Below are positions 34,001-45,718 of a DNA stretch of 64,000 nucleotides, piece after piece (position 1 is the first letter of the stretch; the number at the start of each line of letters is the position of its first letter). The notes below the pieces were generated by a model that searched no databases, was not told the origin of the DNA, and saw only the letters and a program-made list of their open reading frames with translations. The stretch is from assembly GCF_002153605.1 (NCBI RefSeq), contig NZ_JOPG01000010.1:1-64000 (forward strand), given 5' to 3'. Position numbers and translations under genes: made by a program. This DNA comes from Acetobacter malorum. Lineage in GTDB: Bacteria > Pseudomonadota > Alphaproteobacteria > Acetobacterales > Acetobacteraceae.

Positions 34001-35479
34001 TCAGGATGAAACCAGATCCGCTTTTTTCTTGCGGCTGCCCGTTCGCGTTGCACGCGCTGGAGTGACTTTGGCGGCCTTGGCCTGCGCAGGAACTGACTTT
34101 TTCGCGCCTGTCCTTTTTGCAGAAGCCACCTTCTGAGCCGCAGCAGCCTGAACGGCGCTCTCTTTGGCCTTACCATTTGCCTTACGAGACGTTGCTTTGG
34201 CTTTGCGAGGCGGTGGGCTCTGAACAGCCTCATCCTGCTGCACAGATGCCGGTTTGTGCGCCGCAATCAACTGGGCAATCAACGCTTCATACTGCGCCAG
34301 ATAAGCCTTCATACAGAGCGTCTGTTCGGCCTTAGCCCGCACTGCCTGCCGCATTTTCTTCGCCGTGCGGGTATCATTCAGCAGTTCCAGAACACCTTCG
34401 GCAATCCGGTCTGGTTCTGTAAACGGCACCAGACGCCCGGTTACGCCATCTTCAATAAATTCTTCAACCGGCGCTGTAGCGCTGCCCACAATGGCGCAGC
34501 CAGCAGCCATAGCCTCACGCAGAGACCAGGAGGCCACAAACGGATAGGTCAGATAGACATGCGTATCAGACCGCTGGAGCAGACGCAGAAAATCCTCGTA
34601 GGCGACCTTGCCCACAAAATGGATACGGGAGAGGTCAAGCTGCCCGGACAGTTCTTCCAGCATCTTCTCCCGCCATGAACCGGACGGCAGACGTGCGCCA
34701 TAGCTGACGCCATCGCCTCCGACCATGATCACGCGGGCATCTGGCTGTTCTTTGAGGATCCGCGGCAGAGCCCGCATGAAAACATGGAAACCGCGATACG
34801 GCTCCAGATCACGCGAGACATAGGTAATCAGCTTCTCTTTGGGAGAAACATGCACATCCTTGATGCTGAACTTCCGACGATGCGCTGTGGGGTCCGGACA
34901 ACACAGGTCCAGATCCACCCCTTCCCGCAGCACGGTAATTTTGCCCTGCGCCCAGTCCGGATAAGCGCCTTTCTGGAATTCCGTGGGGGTTTGCCCGTAA
35001 CCGGGAGAGGTCAGCGCCTGCAGGTTGATCGCATTCTTGGCGCGCACCAGCGGCATCATGGCCGGATTCATGGGGAATTCCGGGTCAAACCCGACATCAA
35101 AGCCCGGCTCTGTATGGTAATAGAACTCAAAATAGCCCAGCACCGGCACACCGGGGAACACGTCCTGAATGTTCAGGAGTTCGCCCCAGCCATGATGACC
35201 GATGATAATATCCGGCTCAAACCCAAGTGTTTTGAGCGTCGTGGCTGCTTTTGCCACGGCATCCGCCCGCACCAGACCAAGGTCGAATTCCCGTGCGCCC
35301 GGATGGGTCTGCTCCGTGGCATGACGCGGCATACGGTAAATGACCCGACGGACACCGGGAATGAGATTGGCGTTATCTTCACTGATAAAAACAATCTCGT
35401 GCCCACCGGCCTGAACCAGATGACGCACGAGATGGAGGTACTGTCCGGGGAAGTTCTGGTGAATAAAAAGATACTTCAA
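34001..35479 (-). CDS. GT4-like glycosyltransferase with basic, histone-H1-like C-terminal tail
   Basis: A 492-residue glycosyltransferase. The N-terminal Rossmann domain opens MKYLFIHQNFPGQY, a start shared by a set of GT4 enzymes. The C-terminal donor-binding domain has YRGFHVFMRALPRIL, VGKVAYEDFLRLLQRSDTHVYLT and REAMAAGCAIVGSATAPVEEFI (GT4 E-x7-E region, about 325-345). From about residue 407 to the end the sequence becomes Lys/Ala/Arg/Pro-rich (RKAKATSRKANGKAKES, GAKKSVPAQAKAAK), like histone H1 tails. It is the last gene of the minus-strand secretion/glycosylation cluster, 72 bp after the ChW-like gene. Confidence 0.8.
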   Translation of the reverse strand: MKYLFIHQNFPGQYLHLVRHLVQAGGHEIVFISEDNANLIPGVRRVIYRMPRHATEQTHPGAREFDLGLVRADAVAKAATTLKTLGFEPDIIIGHHGWGELLNIQDVFPGVPVLGYFEFYYHTEPGFDVGFDPEFPMNPAMMPLVRAKNAINLQALTSPGYGQTPTEFQKGAYPDWAQGKITVLREGVDLDLCCPDPTAHRRKFSIKDVHVSPKEKLITYVSRDLEPYRGFHVFMRALPRILKEQPDARVIMVGGDGVSYGARLPSGSWREKMLEELSGQLDLSRIHFVGKVAYEDFLRLLQRSDTHVYLTYPFVASWSLREAMAAGCAIVGSATAPVEEFIEDGVTGRLVPFTEPDRIAEGVLELLNDTRTAKKMRQAVRAKAEQTLCMKAYLAQYEALIAQLIAAHKPASVQQDEAVQSPPPRKAKATSRKANGKAKESAVQAAAAQKVASAKRTGAKKSVPAQAKAAKVTPARATRTGSRKKKADLVSS

Positions 35480-35551
35480 GGGATTACCTGTATTGTTATG
35501 CCACCACGTTCCCGGACCAGCCCGGTTTTTTAAACCGGGCCATGGGGAGTT

Positions 35552-36799
35552 TTAACGCCGGGACGTCGGTTTGCGGCCACGGCCTCGCGCTGCGGGGGCA
35601 GCCTTGGCAGGTGCCTTTGGTGCAGCAGCCGCTTTTCTGGGCCGACCCGCTGCTTTTGCCGGGGCACGCTCGGGAGAGGCCGCTTTAGCCACACGCACTT
35701 TGCCTGCCGGACGACCACGACGCGGCGCGCGCGCGGGCTTCGCCGGCGGCAGCTCTTCTTCTACAAACAGTTCAAAATCTTCAGAACCCTCAGCCTCAGC
35801 TTCCAGTTCTTCAAGCTCTTCCAGAACCTCGACCTCTTCCAGCTCTTCTTCCAGAAGGGCTGCGAGATCCGCTGCGGCCTCAGCTTCAGCCGCGGCATTC
35901 CGGCCCTTGCCACCACGACGGCCTTTGCCTCGGCCACCGTCTTCACGCGGCAGAATTTCGAGCAGGAAGGCTTCCAGCGGGGCCAGACTTGCCGTTTCAA
36001 TCGGCTCACCAGTCTCGACCGGCCCGACGCGGGTACCATCGGTAAAGGTGGCCGTCACGCGGCAAATATACTTTTTGGCAGCTTTGCCTTTCAGGCGAAT
36101 GCACAGGCCAAGAATAGGAAGCGCCATACCACGGCTGCCGCAATATTTGCCGCCCTCAACCCACGGAGACAGCCAGCCTTTCCCAAGAACAGCCTGATAT
36201 TCAATGTCATCAGCGCCAATCATCTCAGACGGTGCCACACCAAAGCCTTCAATCCACGCGTGGCTGCCGGGTTCACCCATCCACTCCCCAACGCGCGACA
36301 TCACATCCCCGCGCCGCTGAATATGGGCACCAATTTCTGCTGCATACGGATTAGAGGCGGCGGGCGCCGGAGCCGGCTGAGCCGGAGCTGCTGCCGGTGC
36401 CTGAGCAGGCGGAGCCACAGGCGCATGCTGCGCAACCGGGCCTGCATTGGCGTTGTGGCTCAGCTGCACAACCTGCAAACGCGGGGCATCATGCGGGGAG
36501 CCAAGCTCCTGATAAACGGTGACCAGCACCTGAGCCGGACCCTGCTGCACACGGATCAGCGCCGCGCCATTCTGGCCACCCAGCCAGCCATCCTCATCAA
36601 ACGTCACGATGTTGATGTTGCCCTCATCCCGCAGCGGCGGCTGAGAAAGACGCACACCCGGCAGACCTGCTGCTGTTGGCGGCTGCTGCCCTGGCGCCAG
36701 AAACACGCAGAACAGGCCCGTCTGGAGCGTCATCAGATGGCCCGATACCTTGAGATCAGAAATCCGCTGGGGAGCAGGCGCCTGGGTAGTCTGTGACAT
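35552..36799 (-). CDS. Hydrophobic-W (ChW)-like protein with acidic and AT-hook-like tail
   Basis: A 415-residue protein with no signal peptide and a mosaic layout. Residues 12-115 form a folded domain containing NIVTFDEDGWLGGQNGAALIRV. A Pro/Ala linker spans 125-149. Residues 199-237 (IEYQAVLGKGWLSPWVEGG, then CGSRGMALPILGLCIRL) match the Trp/Gly pattern of clostridial hydrophobic W repeats. Residues 304-350 are strongly acidic (EEELEEVEVLEELEELEAE). Residues 353-415 are basic with AT-hook-like cores PRRGRPAG, AGRPRKA and RGRGRKP. The molecular role is unknown. It sits 86 bp after the large glycosyltransferase gene in the secretion cluster. Confidence 0.7.
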   Translation of the reverse strand: MSQTTQAPAPQRISDLKVSGHLMTLQTGLFCVFLAPGQQPPTAAGLPGVRLSQPPLRDEGNINIVTFDEDGWLGGQNGAALIRVQQGPAQVLVTVYQELGSPHDAPRLQVVQLSHNANAGPVAQHAPVAPPAQAPAAAPAQPAPAPAASNPYAAEIGAHIQRRGDVMSRVGEWMGEPGSHAWIEGFGVAPSEMIGADDIEYQAVLGKGWLSPWVEGGKYCGSRGMALPILGLCIRLKGKAAKKYICRVTATFTDGTRVGPVETGEPIETASLAPLEAFLLEILPREDGGRGKGRRGGKGRNAAAEAEAAADLAALLEEELEEVEVLEELEELEAEAEGSEDFELFVEEELPPAKPARAPRRGRPAGKVRVAKAASPERAPAKAAGRPRKAAAAPKAPAKAAPAARGRGRKPTSRR

Positions 36800-36885: not shown

Positions 36886-39800
36886 TCAGGCCTTCAACGC
36901 ACCAATGCGCCCGAGTTGCAGCAATACGTCATTCAGACTTTCTTCTAAAAGATCTGCCTCAAGGAGAATACCCTGTTTTGTTGCCCGAATACGCTCAGCC
37001 GGGGCACCAAGATCAAAGGCAACCACCTTCAGCCCCGCCTTCCAGGCCAGTCCCAGCGTAAAACACCAGGTTTCCGGCCAGACAGACGGCAAAAAAGCAT
37101 AGTCCGCCTGCAGAGAGGCTATCAGAGGAATGGCCTCGTCCTCCTGATATTCCCCCGTGATAAAAACATGACCGGTGCGCACCAGTGCGTCATCATCCGG
37201 CGTGTGCCCAACAATCACAAATTCGAGGGGCAGATCGCGCAGAGCGGCATCCCGTGCTGCGCCCAGCAACACATCATACCCCTTCTCCTTCCCGATCCCG
37301 CCAATGACACACACCCGGACACGCTCACCCCGGCCGGCACCCATAACAGCCACACCGGGAACACGCTCTTCCGGCACAGGGAGCGCAGCCTGCAGACGCG
37401 CCTCGCCCTCTGCGCACAGCGCCGTATCATCTTCCAGCCGCCAGACATGGCAGGTCAGGCCAGAATACTGCTTTTGCATGCGCTCAGCCGCATCCTGTGA
37501 GGGCGCGTAAACCGTCTGCGCTGTTTTTAAAAACTGAGCAGCCCGTGTGCGATAAAACACAACAGGAACGTCTTCCTCAATTTTCCGACCCAGAAGGGCG
37601 ATACAGGCCTCGCACCCGGCAACGTCTGGCTCGCCACAATACCGGTCTTTCAGACCCATCAGAGAAATTCTCTGACAAAACCACATATAATCGTGAATAT
37701 GGACAGTATAGGGGCACCCCAGCGCCACAGGCAGATCATAAAGCATCGGGTTATGCCCGGCCATATGATGCACCTCCACGCCCTCAGCCCCTTCCGCCTT
37801 TAATAGACGGGTCAGCAATGTCCACTCTTCTGGCAGCCGGAAGTGCAACGAGGCATAGGCGTCGGGATCGGCCAGCCCGTCTTCCAGCAAGCAGCCCCCG
37901 CCTGTAGGGCGCACTACAAGGGGACGCAGCCCCTGACGAGACAGAGCTTTCACCCGCTCACCCACCACACGCTCAACCCCGCCACCATAATCATGCGTGA
38001 CCAGCACCATGGCCCGCCGTTTTCGACTTTTGCGTGTTGAAGCCTTCTGCCCGGAACCAGCCCGGAAGCGCACAAGATCAAACCGACGGCGCGCCTTAAA
38101 CAGAGGATCTTTTTCAATCCATGCTGCAATCATCTCATGATAACCGGGGTGCAGGCGGTTCAGGATTGCCTCGTTGCGCCGCATCAGTCCGGTACGGGTG
38201 CCTCCAAACGAGGCTGAACCAACATGAGCAACATACGCACCCAGAGCGGCCTGATGCCGCCACCCCAGAGCCCGCGCACGCATGCAAAAATCGTTTTCTT
38301 CGCCATAACCTTGCGCAAAAACATCGTCTCGCAGCATCCCGGTCTGCGCCAGACAATCATGCCGGATATACATGCAGAAGCCGTTTGCCGTCGGGATTTC
38401 TATAGCCTGCCCCGCATTGGCAGCTTGTGCCTGCGCCATCAGATCCTGCGTTTGGACAAGGTCAGGCACAGGGTTCTTCCTGTCCGGTGAAGGATAGGAC
38501 AAAATACTGGCGTCATTGGAAAATGGCGTGACGGTACCCGTCTCTTCCGACGCATAGGCAATGCGTCGCAGCTCTTCCACCCAGCCCTCTGCAACCAGTG
38601 TATCGCTGTTGAGCACAATGACATCATACCCGGCCACCGCTCTCAAACCCGTATTGACCGCTGAGGGAAAGCCACAGTTCCGCGCATGCGTCAGCACACG
38701 GAATCCAGCCTGCGCGGCCAGAGCCTCCACAGCCAGAACAAGATCCGGGTCCGGTGCGGCATCATTGACGATAACCACAGGAATTTTACGAGGTGAGATG
38801 GTCTGCTTTACCGCTTCAAGGCAGTCCAGCGTGCGGGTTTTATCCCGATAGATCGGAATGACAATCGCCACCTCTGCCTGCCGGCCGGAAACCTGCGGCG
38901 TCCCCGTCACCTCATCCTGCACGGGAACAGGAACAAAGCCCGGAAAATCATGCCCCGTTTTTATTTTTTTCTGTTTCTCAACGGAGAAGGTTTGGGCCAG
39001 AGCCTGCACAATCTGTCTGGCTGAGCGTTGCTCCAGCCCGACGTCCAAAGGACTCCCCGCCAGATCGCGCCCATCGGGCCCCACCACCCTCACGGGGCCA
39101 TCCGGCAACGCTTCTGCCGGAAAGGCCAAAGCGCGATAGCGCGCCAAAGGCACGTCGGAATTCACAGAGTTACTGAAACTCTCTGGCTTTATTGTATGCA
39201 GGGTCTTTCCGGTCTGCATATCCTGTATCTGCACCACAGGAACACGGTCCGCATCATGCGGCAGCCAGACCCAGCCACTCAGCCTGTCCGCCCCCGCCTC
39301 AACCAGCCCCTCACTCCGTGCCAGAGCACATGGCTGCACAGGATTCCCTACTAAAAACGGTAGATCCCTAAGACGGATTTCCAGAGATCTGGCTTTCTTC
39401 CAACCGGCCGGACAAAGCCAGCCTGCTTTTTTACGCACCACTTTTACAGGTTGACCATCCAACCACACCGCAGGTGTTTCCTGGGCAGCAGCACCCCCCA
39501 GAACAAGCGTGCCATCCCCCTGCAAGCCACACCACCCTGCAAGACCATTCAGGCGCGTGATTTTATCAGCCAGTTTTGCAATGTCAGCTGTGCAGGCAAA
39601 TTGAGATAAAACCCGCCCCAGCGCAGACACCGCCGCGCCGCCGTTCCCGAGCGCTTGCTGAAACGTTGCCAGAAGAACCCAGCCTTCACGAAAGTCAAAG
39701 CGTTTCAGCAGAGCATTCAGAAGATCAATGGCACCGGTAACATCCCCGACGGCCTGACGCGCGAGAGCAAGGGCAAGCATAACGTGCGGGTTATCCCGGG

Positions 39801-39981
39801 CCTGCCTGTTAGCGCGCTCGAGCCAGTCCCATGCCTCGGCCTCCCGGCCAGCCAGCCAGGCGTCATTCCCGCGCTGAAAAGTCTCTTGGGCCTGTGCACT
39901 GGCCCATGCCTCCAATGAGGCACGGTCTTCCTTCGTAACAAAACCAGAGAGCGCGCCCTGTGTCTTAGCTGACTGCGCCAT
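36886..39981 (-). CDS. Large three-module glycosyltransferase (repeat domain, GT2, GT4)
   Basis: A 1031-residue protein. Residues 1-145 are helical TPR-like (FQRGNDAWLAGREAEAWDWL, DVTGAIDLLNALLKRFD). Residues 150-350 are a beta-rich region. A GT2 domain (about 370-590) starts AIVIPIYRDKTRTLDCLEAV and has VIVNDAAPDPD, GYDVIVLNSDTLVAEGWVEEL as the DxD-like site, and EENDFCMRARALGW. A GT4 domain (about 655-1025) has THDYGGGVERVVGERV, GGIGKEKGYDVLLGAA and PSVWPETWCFTLGLAW. Two transferase modules in one chain suggest stepwise extension of a glycan on one acceptor. Acceptor and sugars are not known. It is 49 bp after the Sel1 gene. Confidence 0.85.
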   Translation of the reverse strand: MAQSAKTQGALSGFVTKEDRASLEAWASAQAQETFQRGNDAWLAGREAEAWDWLERANRQARDNPHVMLALALARQAVGDVTGAIDLLNALLKRFDFREGWVLLATFQQALGNGGAAVSALGRVLSQFACTADIAKLADKITRLNGLAGWCGLQGDGTLVLGGAAAQETPAVWLDGQPVKVVRKKAGWLCPAGWKKARSLEIRLRDLPFLVGNPVQPCALARSEGLVEAGADRLSGWVWLPHDADRVPVVQIQDMQTGKTLHTIKPESFSNSVNSDVPLARYRALAFPAEALPDGPVRVVGPDGRDLAGSPLDVGLEQRSARQIVQALAQTFSVEKQKKIKTGHDFPGFVPVPVQDEVTGTPQVSGRQAEVAIVIPIYRDKTRTLDCLEAVKQTISPRKIPVVIVNDAAPDPDLVLAVEALAAQAGFRVLTHARNCGFPSAVNTGLRAVAGYDVIVLNSDTLVAEGWVEELRRIAYASEETGTVTPFSNDASILSYPSPDRKNPVPDLVQTQDLMAQAQAANAGQAIEIPTANGFCMYIRHDCLAQTGMLRDDVFAQGYGEENDFCMRARALGWRHQAALGAYVAHVGSASFGGTRTGLMRRNEAILNRLHPGYHEMIAAWIEKDPLFKARRRFDLVRFRAGSGQKASTRKSRKRRAMVLVTHDYGGGVERVVGERVKALSRQGLRPLVVRPTGGGCLLEDGLADPDAYASLHFRLPEEWTLLTRLLKAEGAEGVEVHHMAGHNPMLYDLPVALGCPYTVHIHDYMWFCQRISLMGLKDRYCGEPDVAGCEACIALLGRKIEEDVPVVFYRTRAAQFLKTAQTVYAPSQDAAERMQKQYSGLTCHVWRLEDDTALCAEGEARLQAALPVPEERVPGVAVMGAGRGERVRVCVIGGIGKEKGYDVLLGAARDAALRDLPLEFVIVGHTPDDDALVRTGHVFITGEYQEDEAIPLIASLQADYAFLPSVWPETWCFTLGLAWKAGLKVVAFDLGAPAERIRATKQGILLEADLLEESLNDVLLQLGRIGALKA

Positions 39982-40030: not shown

Positions 40031-41818
40031 TCAGCTGTCTGCTGGCAGAGGGGCTGTGCCTCCTGTGCCAATACGTGCCAGTTCTGCACTGGCCTGCGCC
40101 AGATTTCTGGCTTCTGCTTTCCGATACCACATGCGTGCCTGCTCCAGATCCTTTTCCCCACCCAGACCATTGGCATAGTAGCGCGCAATCATAAGCTGAG
40201 CCGCAGGATGATCGTGTTCTGCCGCCTTGAGGAACCACTCCCGCGCCAGCGCCCGATCTTCCGGCACATCATGCCCACCACCATACAACGCGGCGACGGA
40301 GAACATAGCCGAGACCGTCCCATTTTCCGCAGCCTGTTTGTATAGTCGCAGCGCCTCGGGATGATTTTTAGGACCACCTACCCCGGTAACCAGCAAGTCA
40401 GCATAGGCCGTTTCGGCTTCTGCCATACCCGCTTCTGCTGCTTTCTGGATCCATGCACGACCTTCTTCAGGGTTCCGTGTAACGCCACGTCCCTCCAGCA
40501 ACATCTTCCCATACCAGTACTGGGCATTGACGACTTTTTCAGCCGCCTTATGCAGCCACTGGAGGGCCTCTTCCTCGTCACGCTCGACCCCGACGCCCTG
40601 TGCCAGACAGACGCCAAAATTGAAGGCCGCCAACAGGTCACCCTCTTCGGCGGCATGCTTGTAGAATTCCATGAGAGCGCGCCCGTCTTCTTTGGGAGCC
40701 TCTCCTTCGAGCACCAGATTAGCGAGATCTGCCGTAGCGTGTTTGTCGCCCTGCTCTGCCGCTAGCTTGAACCAGTAGGCAGCCGCTTCCGGATCTTTTG
40801 GAACGCCGACGCCTGCCATGTAAATCGCACCAAGCGTGTGGCTTGACGCTGCGTGACCAAGCTCGGAGGCAAAACGATACCAGGAAATGGCTTCTGCATA
40901 GTTGGGGGGCAGATCTATCCCGCGCCCATACCAGTCACCAAGAATGGCCGCAGCCTCTGCATCGCCCGCCAAGGCTGCCTTACGCAGCCAGCTTTCACCG
41001 CGATCTCTATTGCGCTCAATACCTTTGCCCGCCATGAGGGCAATACCGTATTTTGCCTGCCCGCCGCGGACATTTTTCTCAGCAGCTTTTCCAAAGTAGG
41101 ACGTTGCCAGCACATAATCCGGGGGGACCCCTGTGCCGCGCTCGGTCATGACGCCCATCAAATACAGCGCTGTGCCCAGTCCGCCATCTGCGGCTTTCTG
41201 TAGCTCGACCGCTGCCTGAGCATACTGGTCATATGTCTGCGCATCTTTGAGCGCTGCCAGCCCCAGCCCTAGATATCCCTGCAGACATCCGGCATCCGCC
41301 GCTTTCTGATACCAGAGCAAAGCCTGCGCCGGGTCACGAATGTCATCAGGACCTGCGCTCAGGATGTAGCCATACAGAGCCTGCGCATCCATATCACCGG
41401 CTTCAGCCGCCTGCTTCGCCCAGCGGGCTGCTTTGTGATAATCCGGCTGTGGCTTTTCGCGCTTTTTATAATCTTCAAAGACCGAAGAAAGGCTTTCCCC
41501 TTCTTCAACTTCTTTGGGAAGACCGTGCAGATACAATGTCGCCAGAATGAAGGCAGCTCTGTTCCAGCCTTTCAGGGCCGCGCGCCGGGTCCAGCGGGCT
41601 CCTTCAATCAGGTTAGGCGGCGCACCCTGCGCATTCAGGTAAGCCTGACCAACCAGATACTGGGCTTCCGGCAAGCCTTCGCGGGCAAGGACCGTGAAAA
41701 TGGCAAAAGCTTTTGTGGCTTCTCCCTCCTCCAGCAAAGTCTTTGCCTGGGTAAGCCGGCCATCAACAGGCGCTTCATTACCCCGTCCGAAAAGCCGGCT
41801 AATCAGCTTCTTTAGCAA
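40031..41818 (-). CDS. Sel1-like repeat protein, 595 aa
   Basis: The protein is made almost entirely of about fourteen Sel1-like repeats of 34-38 residues, with the pattern A-x2-LG-x2-Y-x2-G-x-GV-x2-D-x2-EA-x2-W-x3-AA-x2-G. Examples are LGDWYGRGIDLPPNYAEAISW, YMAGVGVPKDPEAAAYWF and YYANGLGGEKDLEQARMW. There is no signal peptide or membrane segment, so it is predicted to be cytosolic. Sel1 solenoids act as protein-binding scaffolds. Its place between the membrane-fusion gene (45 bp) and the glycosyltransferase (49 bp) suggests it holds substrate, transferase and transporter together, which is inference. Confidence 0.88.
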   Translation of the reverse strand: MLKKLISRLFGRGNEAPVDGRLTQAKTLLEEGEATKAFAIFTVLAREGLPEAQYLVGQAYLNAQGAPPNLIEGARWTRRAALKGWNRAAFILATLYLHGLPKEVEEGESLSSVFEDYKKREKPQPDYHKAARWAKQAAEAGDMDAQALYGYILSAGPDDIRDPAQALLWYQKAADAGCLQGYLGLGLAALKDAQTYDQYAQAAVELQKAADGGLGTALYLMGVMTERGTGVPPDYVLATSYFGKAAEKNVRGGQAKYGIALMAGKGIERNRDRGESWLRKAALAGDAEAAAILGDWYGRGIDLPPNYAEAISWYRFASELGHAASSHTLGAIYMAGVGVPKDPEAAAYWFKLAAEQGDKHATADLANLVLEGEAPKEDGRALMEFYKHAAEEGDLLAAFNFGVCLAQGVGVERDEEEALQWLHKAAEKVVNAQYWYGKMLLEGRGVTRNPEEGRAWIQKAAEAGMAEAETAYADLLVTGVGGPKNHPEALRLYKQAAENGTVSAMFSVAALYGGGHDVPEDRALAREWFLKAAEHDHPAAQLMIARYYANGLGGEKDLEQARMWYRKAEARNLAQASAELARIGTGGTAPLPADS

Positions 41819-41863: not shown

Positions 41864-43318
41864 TTAGGGCTCACGCATACCATCCGTCATCAACGGCATG
41901 AAACTGTTCAACAGATATTGCATAATCGTCCGCTTACCGACGCGAATGTCCGCACTCACCGGCATACCTGGCTGGGGATGGAAGAAGCTTGGCACGCCAT
42001 GCAGCGTGTAGCGATCAACACGCAGGCGGACACGATAAAATTCCTTGCTGCTGCTGTCCGGCGTAACATCATTATCCTGCTGACCGCCAGCTGAAGGACC
42101 GCCAACAAAGGAGTCCGCACTAATCGTCCGGACAGTGGCATCTGCACCGCCATATTGCTGGTAAGGGAATGTCGCAAACTTGACCAGTGCCTTGTCCCCA
42201 AGCCTTACAAACCCGGCATCCTTACCGGACATGACGGTTTCAATCTCCAGCCCCTTACCAACAGGAACCAGAGTCATCACTTTTTGGCCTGCCGTCAGCA
42301 CTGAACCAACAGAGACCTTGGAGATATTCAGCACAATGGCATCTTCGTCCGCTTTCAGCGTGACAAGACTGTTGTGCAGCACAGCCTTCTGATAGGCACT
42401 TTTCGCTTCCGACAGATGATGCTGAGCCGTAACCAGATCACGGTACGCTTCGGCCTTCCAGTTCTGGATATAGCCTTCTTTCTCAGAAACCTGAGCAGCC
42501 AACTTGTTCCGCGTACTCCCGGCCTGCTGCTGTGCGGCAATCTGGGAGCGTTCGACTTCCATCAACTCATTCTGTGCACTCAGTGTAGACAGCTTACTCC
42601 CGACCTGATCTTTCTGCAGTTGCATCCGCATTTTATGCACATCTGCCGCCACTTTGGCCCGCGCAGCAAACATGGCTGCACTTGCCTGAGCGCTTTGTAA
42701 GTCATTCTGCAAACTGGCAATTTGCTTATCATAATTACTGACTTTGGCATCAAACTCAGCTTTACGACGGAGAAATGCTTCTGCCTGTTGAACAGAGGCC
42801 GAATTTCGGGGATCGACAGAATAGAGTTTGCTCTGTGTTTCTGCTATCAGGCGATCCACCTCGGCCTGATACTGCTCACTCTGGGCCTGCATGTTCTCAA
42901 TATCCGCACCCGAGGACGTGGGATCCAGATGCGCGAGAATATCCCCCTTATGAACAAAATCTCCTTCCCGCACATCAATAGAACGAACAATGGACGTATC
43001 CAAAGGCTGAACTAGAAGAGTCTGTTCTGTTGAAACTAGACGCCCTTGTGTTGAAACCACTCGGTCCAGCGGAAAAACGGTCATTACGGTAACGGATGAA
43101 AGAACCAGCGCCCCAACAAGCCAGGAAATATACTGCGCTGAAGGCGTGGGCGGCATATTGACCAAGGCGGCCGTCGGGGAATGGAACTCCAGCAGGGCCG
43201 GAGGCATGTCACCCTGTGCATATGGGTCATCCGCCTGACGCAGAAAATCAGGCTCGCTTTCCGTGCTCACGTCGGAACCAGTCGGCTGCCCTGAGGGCAC
43301 AATATCCTGTTCACTCAT
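41864..43318 (-). CDS. Type I secretion membrane-fusion protein (HlyD family)
   Basis: A 484-residue adaptor of a type I secretion system. A cytosolic stretch of about 60 residues leads to one membrane helix (63-83). Then come the lipoyl-like half VREGDFVHKGDILAHLDPT, a long periplasmic coiled coil (about 145-320; QSEQYQAEVDRLIAETQSK and similar) and the second half with LKADEDAIVLNISKVSVGSVL. The C-terminus MPVSADIRVGKRTIMQYLLNSFMP is the classical HlyD ending. The ATG follows GGAG at 8 nt, only 3 bp after the ATPase stop. It links the inner-membrane ATPase to an outer-membrane TolC-type channel. Confidence 0.93.
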   Translation of the reverse strand: MSEQDIVPSGQPTGSDVSTESEPDFLRQADDPYAQGDMPPALLEFHSPTAALVNMPPTPSAQYISWLVGALVLSSVTVMTVFPLDRVVSTQGRLVSTEQTLLVQPLDTSIVRSIDVREGDFVHKGDILAHLDPTSSGADIENMQAQSEQYQAEVDRLIAETQSKLYSVDPRNSASVQQAEAFLRRKAEFDAKVSNYDKQIASLQNDLQSAQASAAMFAARAKVAADVHKMRMQLQKDQVGSKLSTLSAQNELMEVERSQIAAQQQAGSTRNKLAAQVSEKEGYIQNWKAEAYRDLVTAQHHLSEAKSAYQKAVLHNSLVTLKADEDAIVLNISKVSVGSVLTAGQKVMTLVPVGKGLEIETVMSGKDAGFVRLGDKALVKFATFPYQQYGGADATVRTISADSFVGGPSAGGQQDNDVTPDSSSKEFYRVRLRVDRYTLHGVPSFFHPQPGMPVSADIRVGKRTIMQYLLNSFMPLMTDGMREP

Positions 43319-43321
43319 GGC

Positions 43322-45577
43322 TTATTCTCCTTCCGCAACCAGAGAAGACGAGCCGGGTTTTGCTTTCCCCTCTGTATGACGGTTCTGCTGCATCCAGAGT
43401 GTGCGATAGATATCACACCGTTCCAGCAGAACGTCATGGGGCGCAATATCCGCCACAGACCCATGATCCATCACGCAGATCTGGTCACAATTTACGAGAG
43501 AAGACAGACGATGCGAGACAATGACCATAGTCCGGCCCTTGCCGATCCGCTCAAGGTTGGCGTTCACCAAGGCTTCACTTTCCGGATCAAGCGCTGATGT
43601 CGCTTCATCCAGAATCATTAGCTTGGGATCGGTAATCACCGCGCGCGCAATTGCCAGACGCTGACGCTGACCACCCGAAATGTTAGTAGAACCCTCTTCA
43701 ATGAAGGTCTCATAGCCAGCGGGCATACGTTCAATAAATTCTTCAGCACCAGCCATACGCGCCGCACGCACGACATCGTCAATCGTATAGCCGGGACGAC
43801 CAGCCGTAATGTTCTCGCGGATGGTCCCCCGGAACAAGAAGTTATCCTGCAGCACCACCCCGAAAGACCGCCGCAGATGCGTCAGATTGATTTCACGCAG
43901 GTCAATTCCGTCCAGTTTCAGGTAACCCGTATAGGACCGGCTGACCCCCTGCAGCAGTCGGGTGATGGTGGATTTCCCCGAACCGCTTCGCCCGACCAGC
44001 CCTAGCATCGTTCCGGCAGGGACTTCAAAATTCACATCATTCAGAGCTTTGGAGGTCGAACCCGGATAGGTAAAATCCACACCATCAAATGACAGAGCGC
44101 CTTTAATCGGAGGTCGCATCCCCGTGGTCAACGCCTTGGTTTCCGTCGGCTGATTCAATACGGAGGCAGCCTCGCTCAGAGAGGTCATAACTTCGTTAAA
44201 ATCATCCAAAAGCTTAGCAAACCCGACAAGCGGGGATGCCACGCGCCCCCCGAGCATCATAAACGCCACCAGCCCACCCACTCCAACAGACGACGGACTT
44301 ACCAGCGCCAAATAAGCGCCGATCATGATAATGCCTCGATTGATAAACAGATCCAGCGGCATCACCAGCGTTTGCGGCCAGTTAGACATCCGCCCAACCG
44401 CCAGTTTCCAGCGAATTACAATAGAGGTTGATTCGTCCCAGACCTGTTTGCGCATATTTTCCAATGCCAGCGTCTTTAAAGTCCGGATACCCGCAACCGT
44501 TTCGTACAAAATTGCCCCTCGTTCACGCTCAGCCTGCATTTGCTTTGTCATAACCTTCGCAACCGGCCCCATGAAAATCACAACGATCAAGCCAATACAG
44601 CCCGCCGCAGCAACCGTCATCCACGCAAGACTGGAACTGAGATAAAACAAAAATGGTAAAATAACGAACAAGGTAAACAGGTCCAAAAAGGTCGACATCA
44701 GTCTGCCGGTCAGAAAGTCACGTACCTTGTAGATAGCCATGACACGACCAAGAATATTCCCCGCCTGCTGCCTTTCAAAATACTCCAGTGGCAAAGAAAC
44801 CAAGCGACTAAACACATGCAGGGAAATACGAGAATCAATACGGGTTGTTAGCACCAGCGAGAGTTCCCGCCGTCCATACGTCAGCAACACTTCATAGACT
44901 GAAAAAACAACAATAATCCCACTAATCGAAATCAGAGTGGACATGGACTTATAATTCACCACACGATCAATGACCTGCATGACAATAAGTGGTGGAAAAA
45001 TCTGCAGAATACTAAGCGTCATCGAGGCAATGGCGATATCACGCAAAGACCGCTTTTCTCGCAGAACCATCTTGGCCAGCCAGGTCAGATTAATCGGCGC
45101 TTCTGCTTCAGACTGATCCCGTCGCCGCTTGATCAGCAGCACATCACCGGTCCATATCCGGCTCAGGCGCAGTTCATCAACCGGCACGGGAGCCGCGGCT
45201 TCATCTTTCAGCGGGTCGCGCAGCCAGACAACACCCTTACCGGGGTCTGCCCCAACCATAATCGCCGCAGAACCATCACGGAACATCAGCACGATCGGCG
45301 GCGAGTTGGTCATCTTGACCAGATAGCGCCACTTGATGCGCATCCCCTTGGCGACCGCACCCTGTTCTTCCAGCCAGCGCACCAAAGTAGCAGGCGAAGG
45401 GCTTTCTTCCCCCGGCTCTGCTGCAAAATCGCGGATATCCAGTTCCAGCCCATGGAAACGCGCAGCGGCAACAACCGCACGCAGGCGAATGATGGCTGGG
45501 CTCAGGCGGGAGGCACTCTCATGGCCTGGATCAGAAGAAGGGCCAGAAACATCAGGCACATGATCAGTCTGGTTCAC
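43322..45577 (-). CDS. Type I secretion ABC transporter with C39-like domain
   Basis: About 751 residues. The N-terminal 130 residues form a C39-peptidase-like domain in which the catalytic Cys is absent (VAAARFHGLELDIRDF, then SPATLVRWLEEQGAVAKG), so it should bind substrate rather than cleave it. Six membrane helices follow, then the ATPase with Walker A GRSGSGKST, signature NISGGQRQRLA and Walker B LMILDEATSALD. This layout is that of HlyB/LapB-type exporters of RTX proteins. The frame reaches a TTG at 45643; the GTG at 45577 follows AAAGGG at 6 nt and is preferred. It starts the secretion/glycosylation cluster. Confidence 0.92.
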   Translation of the reverse strand: MNQTDHVPDVSGPSSDPGHESASRLSPAIIRLRAVVAAARFHGLELDIRDFAAEPGEESPSPATLVRWLEEQGAVAKGMRIKWRYLVKMTNSPPIVLMFRDGSAAIMVGADPGKGVVWLRDPLKDEAAAPVPVDELRLSRIWTGDVLLIKRRRDQSEAEAPINLTWLAKMVLREKRSLRDIAIASMTLSILQIFPPLIVMQVIDRVVNYKSMSTLISISGIIVVFSVYEVLLTYGRRELSLVLTTRIDSRISLHVFSRLVSLPLEYFERQQAGNILGRVMAIYKVRDFLTGRLMSTFLDLFTLFVILPFLFYLSSSLAWMTVAAAGCIGLIVVIFMGPVAKVMTKQMQAERERGAILYETVAGIRTLKTLALENMRKQVWDESTSIVIRWKLAVGRMSNWPQTLVMPLDLFINRGIIMIGAYLALVSPSSVGVGGLVAFMMLGGRVASPLVGFAKLLDDFNEVMTSLSEAASVLNQPTETKALTTGMRPPIKGALSFDGVDFTYPGSTSKALNDVNFEVPAGTMLGLVGRSGSGKSTITRLLQGVSRSYTGYLKLDGIDLREINLTHLRRSFGVVLQDNFLFRGTIRENITAGRPGYTIDDVVRAARMAGAEEFIERMPAGYETFIEEGSTNISGGQRQRLAIARAVITDPKLMILDEATSALDPESEALVNANLERIGKGRTMVIVSHRLSSLVNCDQICVMDHGSVADIAPHDVLLERCDIYRTLWMQQNRHTEGKAKPGSSSLVAEGE

Positions 45578-45718
45578 GAACAACCCTTTTGGCAAAACCT
45601 TAATACGCGGTCCGAACGCCTTAGATCGCCAGCTCCCGGACAAAAGCTCTTATGACAGGGTGTGAGGATGACCTCAAAGTGTTTCTCGATCTTCATCCCG
45701 CCATCCCGCGTTATTTCT

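Follow-up and report, generated by a model that had tools for sequence, protein, structure and literature searches.

The protein encoded on the minus strand at positions 35552..36799 of the window (the whole 64,000-nucleotide stretch of Acetobacter malorum DNA analyzed here) carries a ChW repeat and is predicted to act in the cytoplasm as an accessory, or adaptor, subunit for glycosyltransferases that specifically serve a substrate of type I secretion, an assignment that we consider moderately probable. In the mechanism we propose, a GT2/GT4 double enzyme and a GT4 enzyme would assemble the glycan of an RTX protein inside the cytoplasm, after which a HlyB/HlyD pair would export the glycosylated protein. 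The N-terminal and ChW domains of the adaptor would offer a surface to which either the acceptor protein or the glycan under construction could bind, and in Acetobacter its acidic block would bind the basic tail of the GT4 enzyme, holding the two enzymes together. Gene order, gene fusion and co-occurrence together lead to the suggestion that glycosylation is coupled to export.

The ChW gene is the fifth of six genes that lie in one orientation, all on the minus strand, in the order HlyB, HlyD, Sel1, GT2/GT4, ChW and GT4. The cluster begins with a HlyB-type ABC exporter of 773 amino acids (43322..45643), in which ABC_membrane and ABC_tran score over their cut-offs, followed by a HlyD-type adaptor (41864..43318) that reaches 312.5 bits with NCBIfam TIGR01843 against a cut-off of 208.65. 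The following two genes encode a Sel1-repeat protein of 595 amino acids with 12 stretches matched in Pfam (40031..41818) and a double glycosyltransferase of 1031 amino acids with TPR-like, GT2 and GT4 parts (Pfam, 36886..39981). Beyond the ChW gene lies the gene of the GT4 glycosyltransferase (34001..35479; Glyco_trans_4_3 and Glycos_transf_1 in Pfam), whose open reading frame of 492 amino acids starts with TTG and ends in a basic C-terminal tail of 87 residues with a net charge of +17. The same order was found in 17 of the 18 loci from Acetobacteraceae for which wide flanks were read and, out of 25 genomes of the genus, in each of the 15 that carry ChW, window included; the exception is L010 (NZ_AP023327.1), a plasmid copy from A. 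aceti with the ChW and GT4 genes only. From this order and the co-occurrence described below, the assignment of the glycosyltransferase complex to the exporter in Acetobacteraceae appears well supported.

Several side observations concern the operon itself. Insertion sequences surround the plasmid copy in A. aceti, and a GT2-type gene and a gene with a Hint domain are found in its vicinity. One draft assembly (L007/L073) has broken Sel1, GT2/4 and GT4 frames and an intact ChW frame, owing to sequencing error or decay, and at L072 the GT4 gene is cut by the contig end. A strong hairpin recognized from the sequence between the ChW and GT4 genes (35520..35540, minus strand) is kept in relatives and may set the expression of GT4 below that of the other operon genes. 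Its bases vary by species with the stem kept in L003-L008, L046 and L049, and a T-rich run follows it in L046, L049 and L008, as in an intrinsic terminator. In 16 of 18 gaps, the exceptions being L044 and L045, the GT4 gene apparently starts with TTG or GTG instead of ATG (35477-35479 in the window).

A link between the ChW protein and the double glycosyltransferase is also seen outside the genus, where the ChW region forms the C-terminus of a GT2/GT4 enzyme in a single frame, both on Azospirillum plasmids (L011, L012) and in genomes of other families (L039, L040). At the fusion loci a GT4 gene stands next but one to the fused gene. Among ten Azospirillum plasmid records, two of which were read, the match falls within a gene annotated as glycosyltransferase in nine; the fused Azospirillum frames contain a Met near the junction, and separate translation is possible. 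Fusion and gene order thus provide good support for the ChW protein working with the GT2/GT4 enzyme. The ChW frames are unfused in Aureimonas, Bradyrhizobium and two further genomes (G199, G295); the Bradyrhizobium homologue is surrounded by glycosyltransferase genes, and the stretches read in Aureimonas and Bradyrhizobium hold no annotated RTX gene.

The fusion loci also point to the putative cargo. In L011 and L012 the fused gene is immediately preceded by one for an RTX calcium-binding protein (Pfam RTX), and in L039 by an RTX-like gene, recognized by its resemblance to the Acetobacter RTX protein P0004. The contig of L040 starts at the fusion; an RTX-type gene is thus present in all three fusion loci with a readable upstream side. 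A gmhA gene follows the fusion by 3-4 kb in both L011 and L012, and a nucleotidyltransferase-HAD gene follows it in L011, making heptose a candidate sugar at the Azospirillum fusion loci.

In the genome of the window, P0004 is a protein of 473 amino acids encoded between further glycosyltransferases (C28:99525-100943), with RTX repeats scoring 34.2 bits with PF00353 against a cut-off of 23. Among 25 genomes of the genus (the genome of the window and G001-G024), the ChW protein is present in 15, and near-full-length matches to P0004 occur in exactly these 15 and in none of the 10 ChW-negative genomes. The HlyD adaptor scores over the TIGR01843 cut-off in the same 15 genomes, with one copy per genome, and in none of the remaining 10. 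Fisher's test gives p 3e-7 for the co-occurrence, ignoring phylogeny, and the 15/10 split could reflect one or two events. Outside the genus, HlyD exceeds the cut-off in 10 of 16 genomes without the ChW family, as it is a general exporter part. Within the genus the RTX gene lies at a second locus that is not adjacent to the operon, where it adjoins a glycosyltransferase of 913-977 amino acids in all 13 genomes read of the 15; a second large glycosyltransferase is close by in 11 of these 13, whereas the stretches of L076 and L085 lack it. P0004 and the RTX proteins beside the fusions show 33-34% likeness over glycine-rich repeats and a C-terminal stretch, which is partly compositional because glycine-rich repeats inflate likeness. 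Co-occurrence, and adjacency in relatives, make a good but indirect case for the RTX protein as the probable cargo. From the glycosyltransferase neighbors at both loci, we further infer that the RTX protein is glycosylated, i.e. that it would be the glycan acceptor, rather than that the enzymes make a polysaccharide.

The polysaccharide alternative deserves weighing at this point, and we regard it as rather unlikely. It holds that the operon glycosyltransferases make exopolysaccharide or lipopolysaccharide, that the RTX protein binds the polymer outside the cell non-covalently, and that the ChW protein assists synthesis by binding the polymer. Both operon glycosyltransferases reach none of the NCBIfam cut-offs listed for them, the Sel1 protein scores to ExoR and AlgK, albeit below cut-off, and pseB/C, gmhA and rfbABCD occur in the neighborhood of the homologues from Azospirillum and Bradyrhizobium, all of which would fit polysaccharide synthesis. 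Against this, no protein of Wzx, Wzy or Wza type was found by Pfam among the nine window proteins scanned, the cluster has a type I exporter and occurs one-to-one with a single RTX protein.

These observations are more in keeping with protein glycosylation preceding export, for which a more complete scheme can be put forward tentatively. Glycosylation-coupled type I secretion would exist as a two-locus module in Acetobacter and as a compact, putative one-locus version in Azospirillum; cytoplasmic glycosyltransferases would decorate an RTX surface protein before its export by HlyB/HlyD, and the ChW subunit, as an adaptor that recognizes the acceptor, would be kept on the second enzyme by tails of complementary charge. 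In the usual picture, type I substrates leave the cell unfolded and without glycans. If the scheme is true, a conserved operon linking an exporter with glycosyltransferases and with one RTX protein would provide a food bacterium for testing whether glycosylation precedes or gates type I export, and the analysis supplies a named candidate substrate and a gene set for this purpose. It would also point to a role inside the cell for a domain familiar from the surface of Gram-positive bacteria.

Comparison with known systems shows where this module would depart from them. As in HlyB/HlyD type I secretion, a HlyD protein over the type_I_hlyD cut-off is encoded adjacent to a HlyB-like ABC exporter; here, however, the exporter clusters with two glycosyltransferase genes, Sel1 and ChW, its presumed substrate is encoded at a second locus, and HlyB remains below the TIGR01846 cut-off (518.1 vs 725.55 bits). 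Glycosylation of AIDA-type autotransporters takes place in the cytoplasm. The dedicated glycosylation of a repeat-rich surface protein is established for these autotransporters, according to the available excerpt of PMC4358343. The autotransporter heptosyltransferases TibC and Aah, acting with TibA and AIDA-I, resemble the proposed machine in being dedicated to a repeat-rich surface protein, and gmhA near the Azospirillum fusions adds to the likeness; they differ in that export here is of type I rather than type V, that the operon glycosyltransferases match only GT4/GT2 families in Pfam, and that there is an extra ChW subunit. A search of open-licence literature returned no description of glycosyltransferase-coupled type I secretion in these bacteria, and the excerpts retrieved for Acetobacter RTX proteins and type I secretion dealt only with Bordetella and Pseudomonas.

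The ChW protein starts with ATG, is 415 amino acids long and, as delineated from its open reading frame, Pfam and alignment, consists of an N-terminal domain (residues ~13-115), an Ala/Pro linker, the ChW domain (~155-285), an acidic block (~300-350) and a basic tail (~351-415). A sequence-only reading of the window had seen the ChW pattern at residues 199-237 and proposed a profile search with PF07538; that search confirmed the domain and corrected its bounds by no more than ~7 residues, with residues 206-238 aligned to positions 4-35 of the 35-position profile at 24.1 bits (E 3.2e-5, Pfam cut-off 22). The six-frame search of the genome places the repeat at 36086..36184 on the minus strand with 29.1 bits against the same cut-off, the only PF07538 match at E≤0.001 in the 3.09 Mb of this genome. 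Across the aligned family, 28 of 29 members, window protein counted, match PF07538 at E≤0.01, an E threshold rather than the curated cut-off; the fused protein of L039, for instance, scores 21.5 bits, slightly under 22. The match displays the G-W, W-x-x-GG and G-S-R-G positions. A triple repeat, suspected by eye, was only partly borne out: a single copy exceeds the cut-off, and the pieces flanking it on either side have no Pfam match. In profile comparisons, the ~45 residues after the match resemble the ChW repeat weakly (local P 2.8e-4, probability 41%), and those preceding it show no resemblance worth naming.

In Gram-positive bacteria, the family looks different. The available excerpt of PMC5817068 describes ChW repeats in Firmicutes and some Actinobacteria, with one to twelve copies per protein, suggested triplets and a predominance of endolysins; their wall ligand is given there as unknown, and they are predicted to anchor proteins at the surface or to mediate protein-protein interaction. 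Three ChW repeats have also been published for a protein from a cyanobacterium (excerpt of PMC8794177). The protein studied here shares with the Gram-positive proteins one repeat over the PF07538 cut-off, but this is the single copy over threshold, the host is Gram-negative, and the gene is tied to glycosyltransferases. Judging by the type of domain, binding of the acceptor or of the glycan by the ChW domain would be a guess. ChW proteins are rare within Alphaproteobacteria: PF07538 was found in 2 of 142 sampled alphaproteobacterial genomes, this one and another of the same family, and a profile of the whole conserved region in at least 7 of 289 sampled genomes, this one included. A phage search gave no match, and of 12 pattern matches in viral contigs none was confirmed.

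Conservation is concentrated in the N-terminal and ChW domains, both of which are under strong purifying selection. Ratios of dN/dS from four pairs, which are rough since some dS values exceed 1 and are saturated, amount to 0.06-0.11 for residues 13-115 and 0.02-0.06 for residues 155-285, compared with 0.06-0.19 for the acidic block and 0.12-0.32 for the basic tail, the least conserved part. Eleven residues are invariant in the 29 aligned rows, one of which (L009) is a partial, frame-broken MAG sequence; all eleven lie in the second domain and include H159, D165, W173, E184 and Y201. Two cysteines of the ChW domain, C220 and C246, are strongly conserved, C246 being nearly invariant in one alignment and C220 in another, and could form a metal site or a disulphide. 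The ChW protein of G003 (L028, L045) is 564 amino acids long, its two domains being separated by a long insertion rich in His, Gly and Ala. AlphaFold models from 8 sequences each reached pLDDT values of 37 (residues 1-290) and 58.8 (residues 154-288) and were not used, and because of these low values no binding site is proposed; Foldseek with the model of residues 154-288 found no match at E≤0.001 (best 0.34), and searching the PDB by sequence gave nothing convincing.

The ChW protein might itself be exported, by the operon HlyB/HlyD or otherwise, to act on the cell surface as is thought for Firmicutes ChW proteins, a possibility that we hold to be quite improbable. The location of the gene beside a type I exporter, a potential disulphide between the conserved C220 and C246, and the description of ChW as a surface domain in the excerpt of PMC5817068 would all agree with export, as would a weakly hydrophobic stretch at residues 18-36. 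This stretch is the hydropathy maximum of the protein, with a Kyte-Doolittle mean of 1.27 over 19 residues. Membrane spans are usually more hydrophobic, and since the homologous stretch is internal in the fused Azospirillum proteins, a signal peptide is unlikely here, in agreement with the sequence-only reading, which had recognized none. Two further points speak against export: the homologous region forms the C-terminus of glycosyltransferases, which by their type would be intracellular, and the C-terminus of the ChW protein itself is a charged Lys/Ala tail, not one of RTX type.

We return to the cytoplasmic adaptor, for which the charged blocks suggest a means of contact with the second enzyme. 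In windows of 47 residues, the ChW protein has an acidic extreme of net -22 at residue 303 and a basic extreme of net +14 at residue 353, each reached by 0 of 2000 shuffled sequences. The acidic stretch that had been noted at residues 304-350 is thereby borne out; of the AT-hook-like basic tail noted with it, the basic charge and the GRP/RGR cores are present, but the term 'AT-hook-like' proved loose, with ChW as the sole Pfam family at E≤0.1.

The significant charge blocks, and a basic tail that is kept in Acetobacteraceae homologues, could be taken to mean that the ChW protein binds DNA or phase-separates with the acidic block and the AT-hook-like tail as its working parts, which we find hard to credit. 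No AT-hook matches at E≤0.1 in Pfam (very short models can escape the filters), the tail is the least conserved part with the dN/dS of 0.12-0.32 given above, the acidic block is absent from four homologues outside the family, and a similar tail is present on the adjacent glycosyltransferase. The DNA-binding, phase-separating and carrier roles once suggested from the charge design are therefore unsupported, given that the acidic block is lineage-specific, the GT4 neighbor has a similar tail, and the gene context is one of glycosylation and export.

The acidic block represents a lineage-specific addition. Four homologues were read outside Acetobacteraceae (L011-L014, from Azospirillum, Aureimonas and Bradyrhizobium), and none has such a block: their net acidity per 40 residues is at most 5-6, where the ChW protein of the window reaches 20. 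The strongest basic values are +3, +3, +4 and, at the C-terminus of the Bradyrhizobium protein, +9, compared to +13 for the window protein, a comparison based on window maxima only. The four Acetobacteraceae proteins without an acidic block (L041, L042, L044, L048) keep the basic tail, and residues 13-285 are conserved. The GT4 neighbor has a similar Ala/Lys/Pro-rich tail with net +13 in 47 residues, a value matched by 29 of 2000 shuffles.

In a comparison of 20 genomes from Acetobacteraceae, the stronger the acidic block of the ChW protein, the more net positive charge the GT4 tail carries (Pearson 0.84, Spearman 0.90). When phylogenetic contrasts are taken on a midpoint-rooted FastTree of HlyD, GT2/4 and Sel1, the correlation is r 0.49 (p 0.030, n=19), and within the genus alone r 0.43 (p 0.084), while the basic tail of the ChW protein itself gives a contrast r of 0.00 with the GT4 tail; three correlations were tried and the p values are uncorrected. 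The comparison took in L009, a frame-broken, partial ChW protein, and left out L073 (GT4 frame broken, ChW protein the same as in L007), L072 (whose contig ends within the GT4 tail), the plasmid copy L010, L074 (which duplicates L003) and every sequence from outside Acetobacteraceae. Docking of the acidic block onto the basic tail of the neighboring GT4 is thus suggested, with modest support from the covariation. The acidic and basic parts of the ChW protein covary with each other equally strongly (contrast r 0.49, p 0.028), so that the same pattern could arise, in the absence of docking, if disordered tails grew in general.

A second group of potential export substrates is formed by proteins with a Hint_2 domain, which the genome of the window encodes in 19 places. 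Genomes with two or more Hint_2 proteins make up 14 of the 15 ChW-positive but only 1 of the 10 ChW-negative genomes of the genus (Mann-Whitney p 2e-4). Because of the exceptions, G009 with 8 Hint_2 proteins and no ChW operon and G003 with a single one alongside the operon, we treat these proteins as possible substrates only. In open-licence literature on Acetobacter Hint domains, the excerpts retrieved contained an incidental mention. Ten Hint_2 proteins were read, some of them cut, and have Ser/Thr/Gly-rich regions ahead of the Hint domain; in those with a visible N-terminus, no signal peptide is evident by eye. In the genome of the window (contig C2), ~10.6 kb past the window end, L062:10648-15087 encodes a protein of 1479 amino acids that combines a repeat region and a Hint_2 domain with a C-terminal Glyco_trans_1_4 match.
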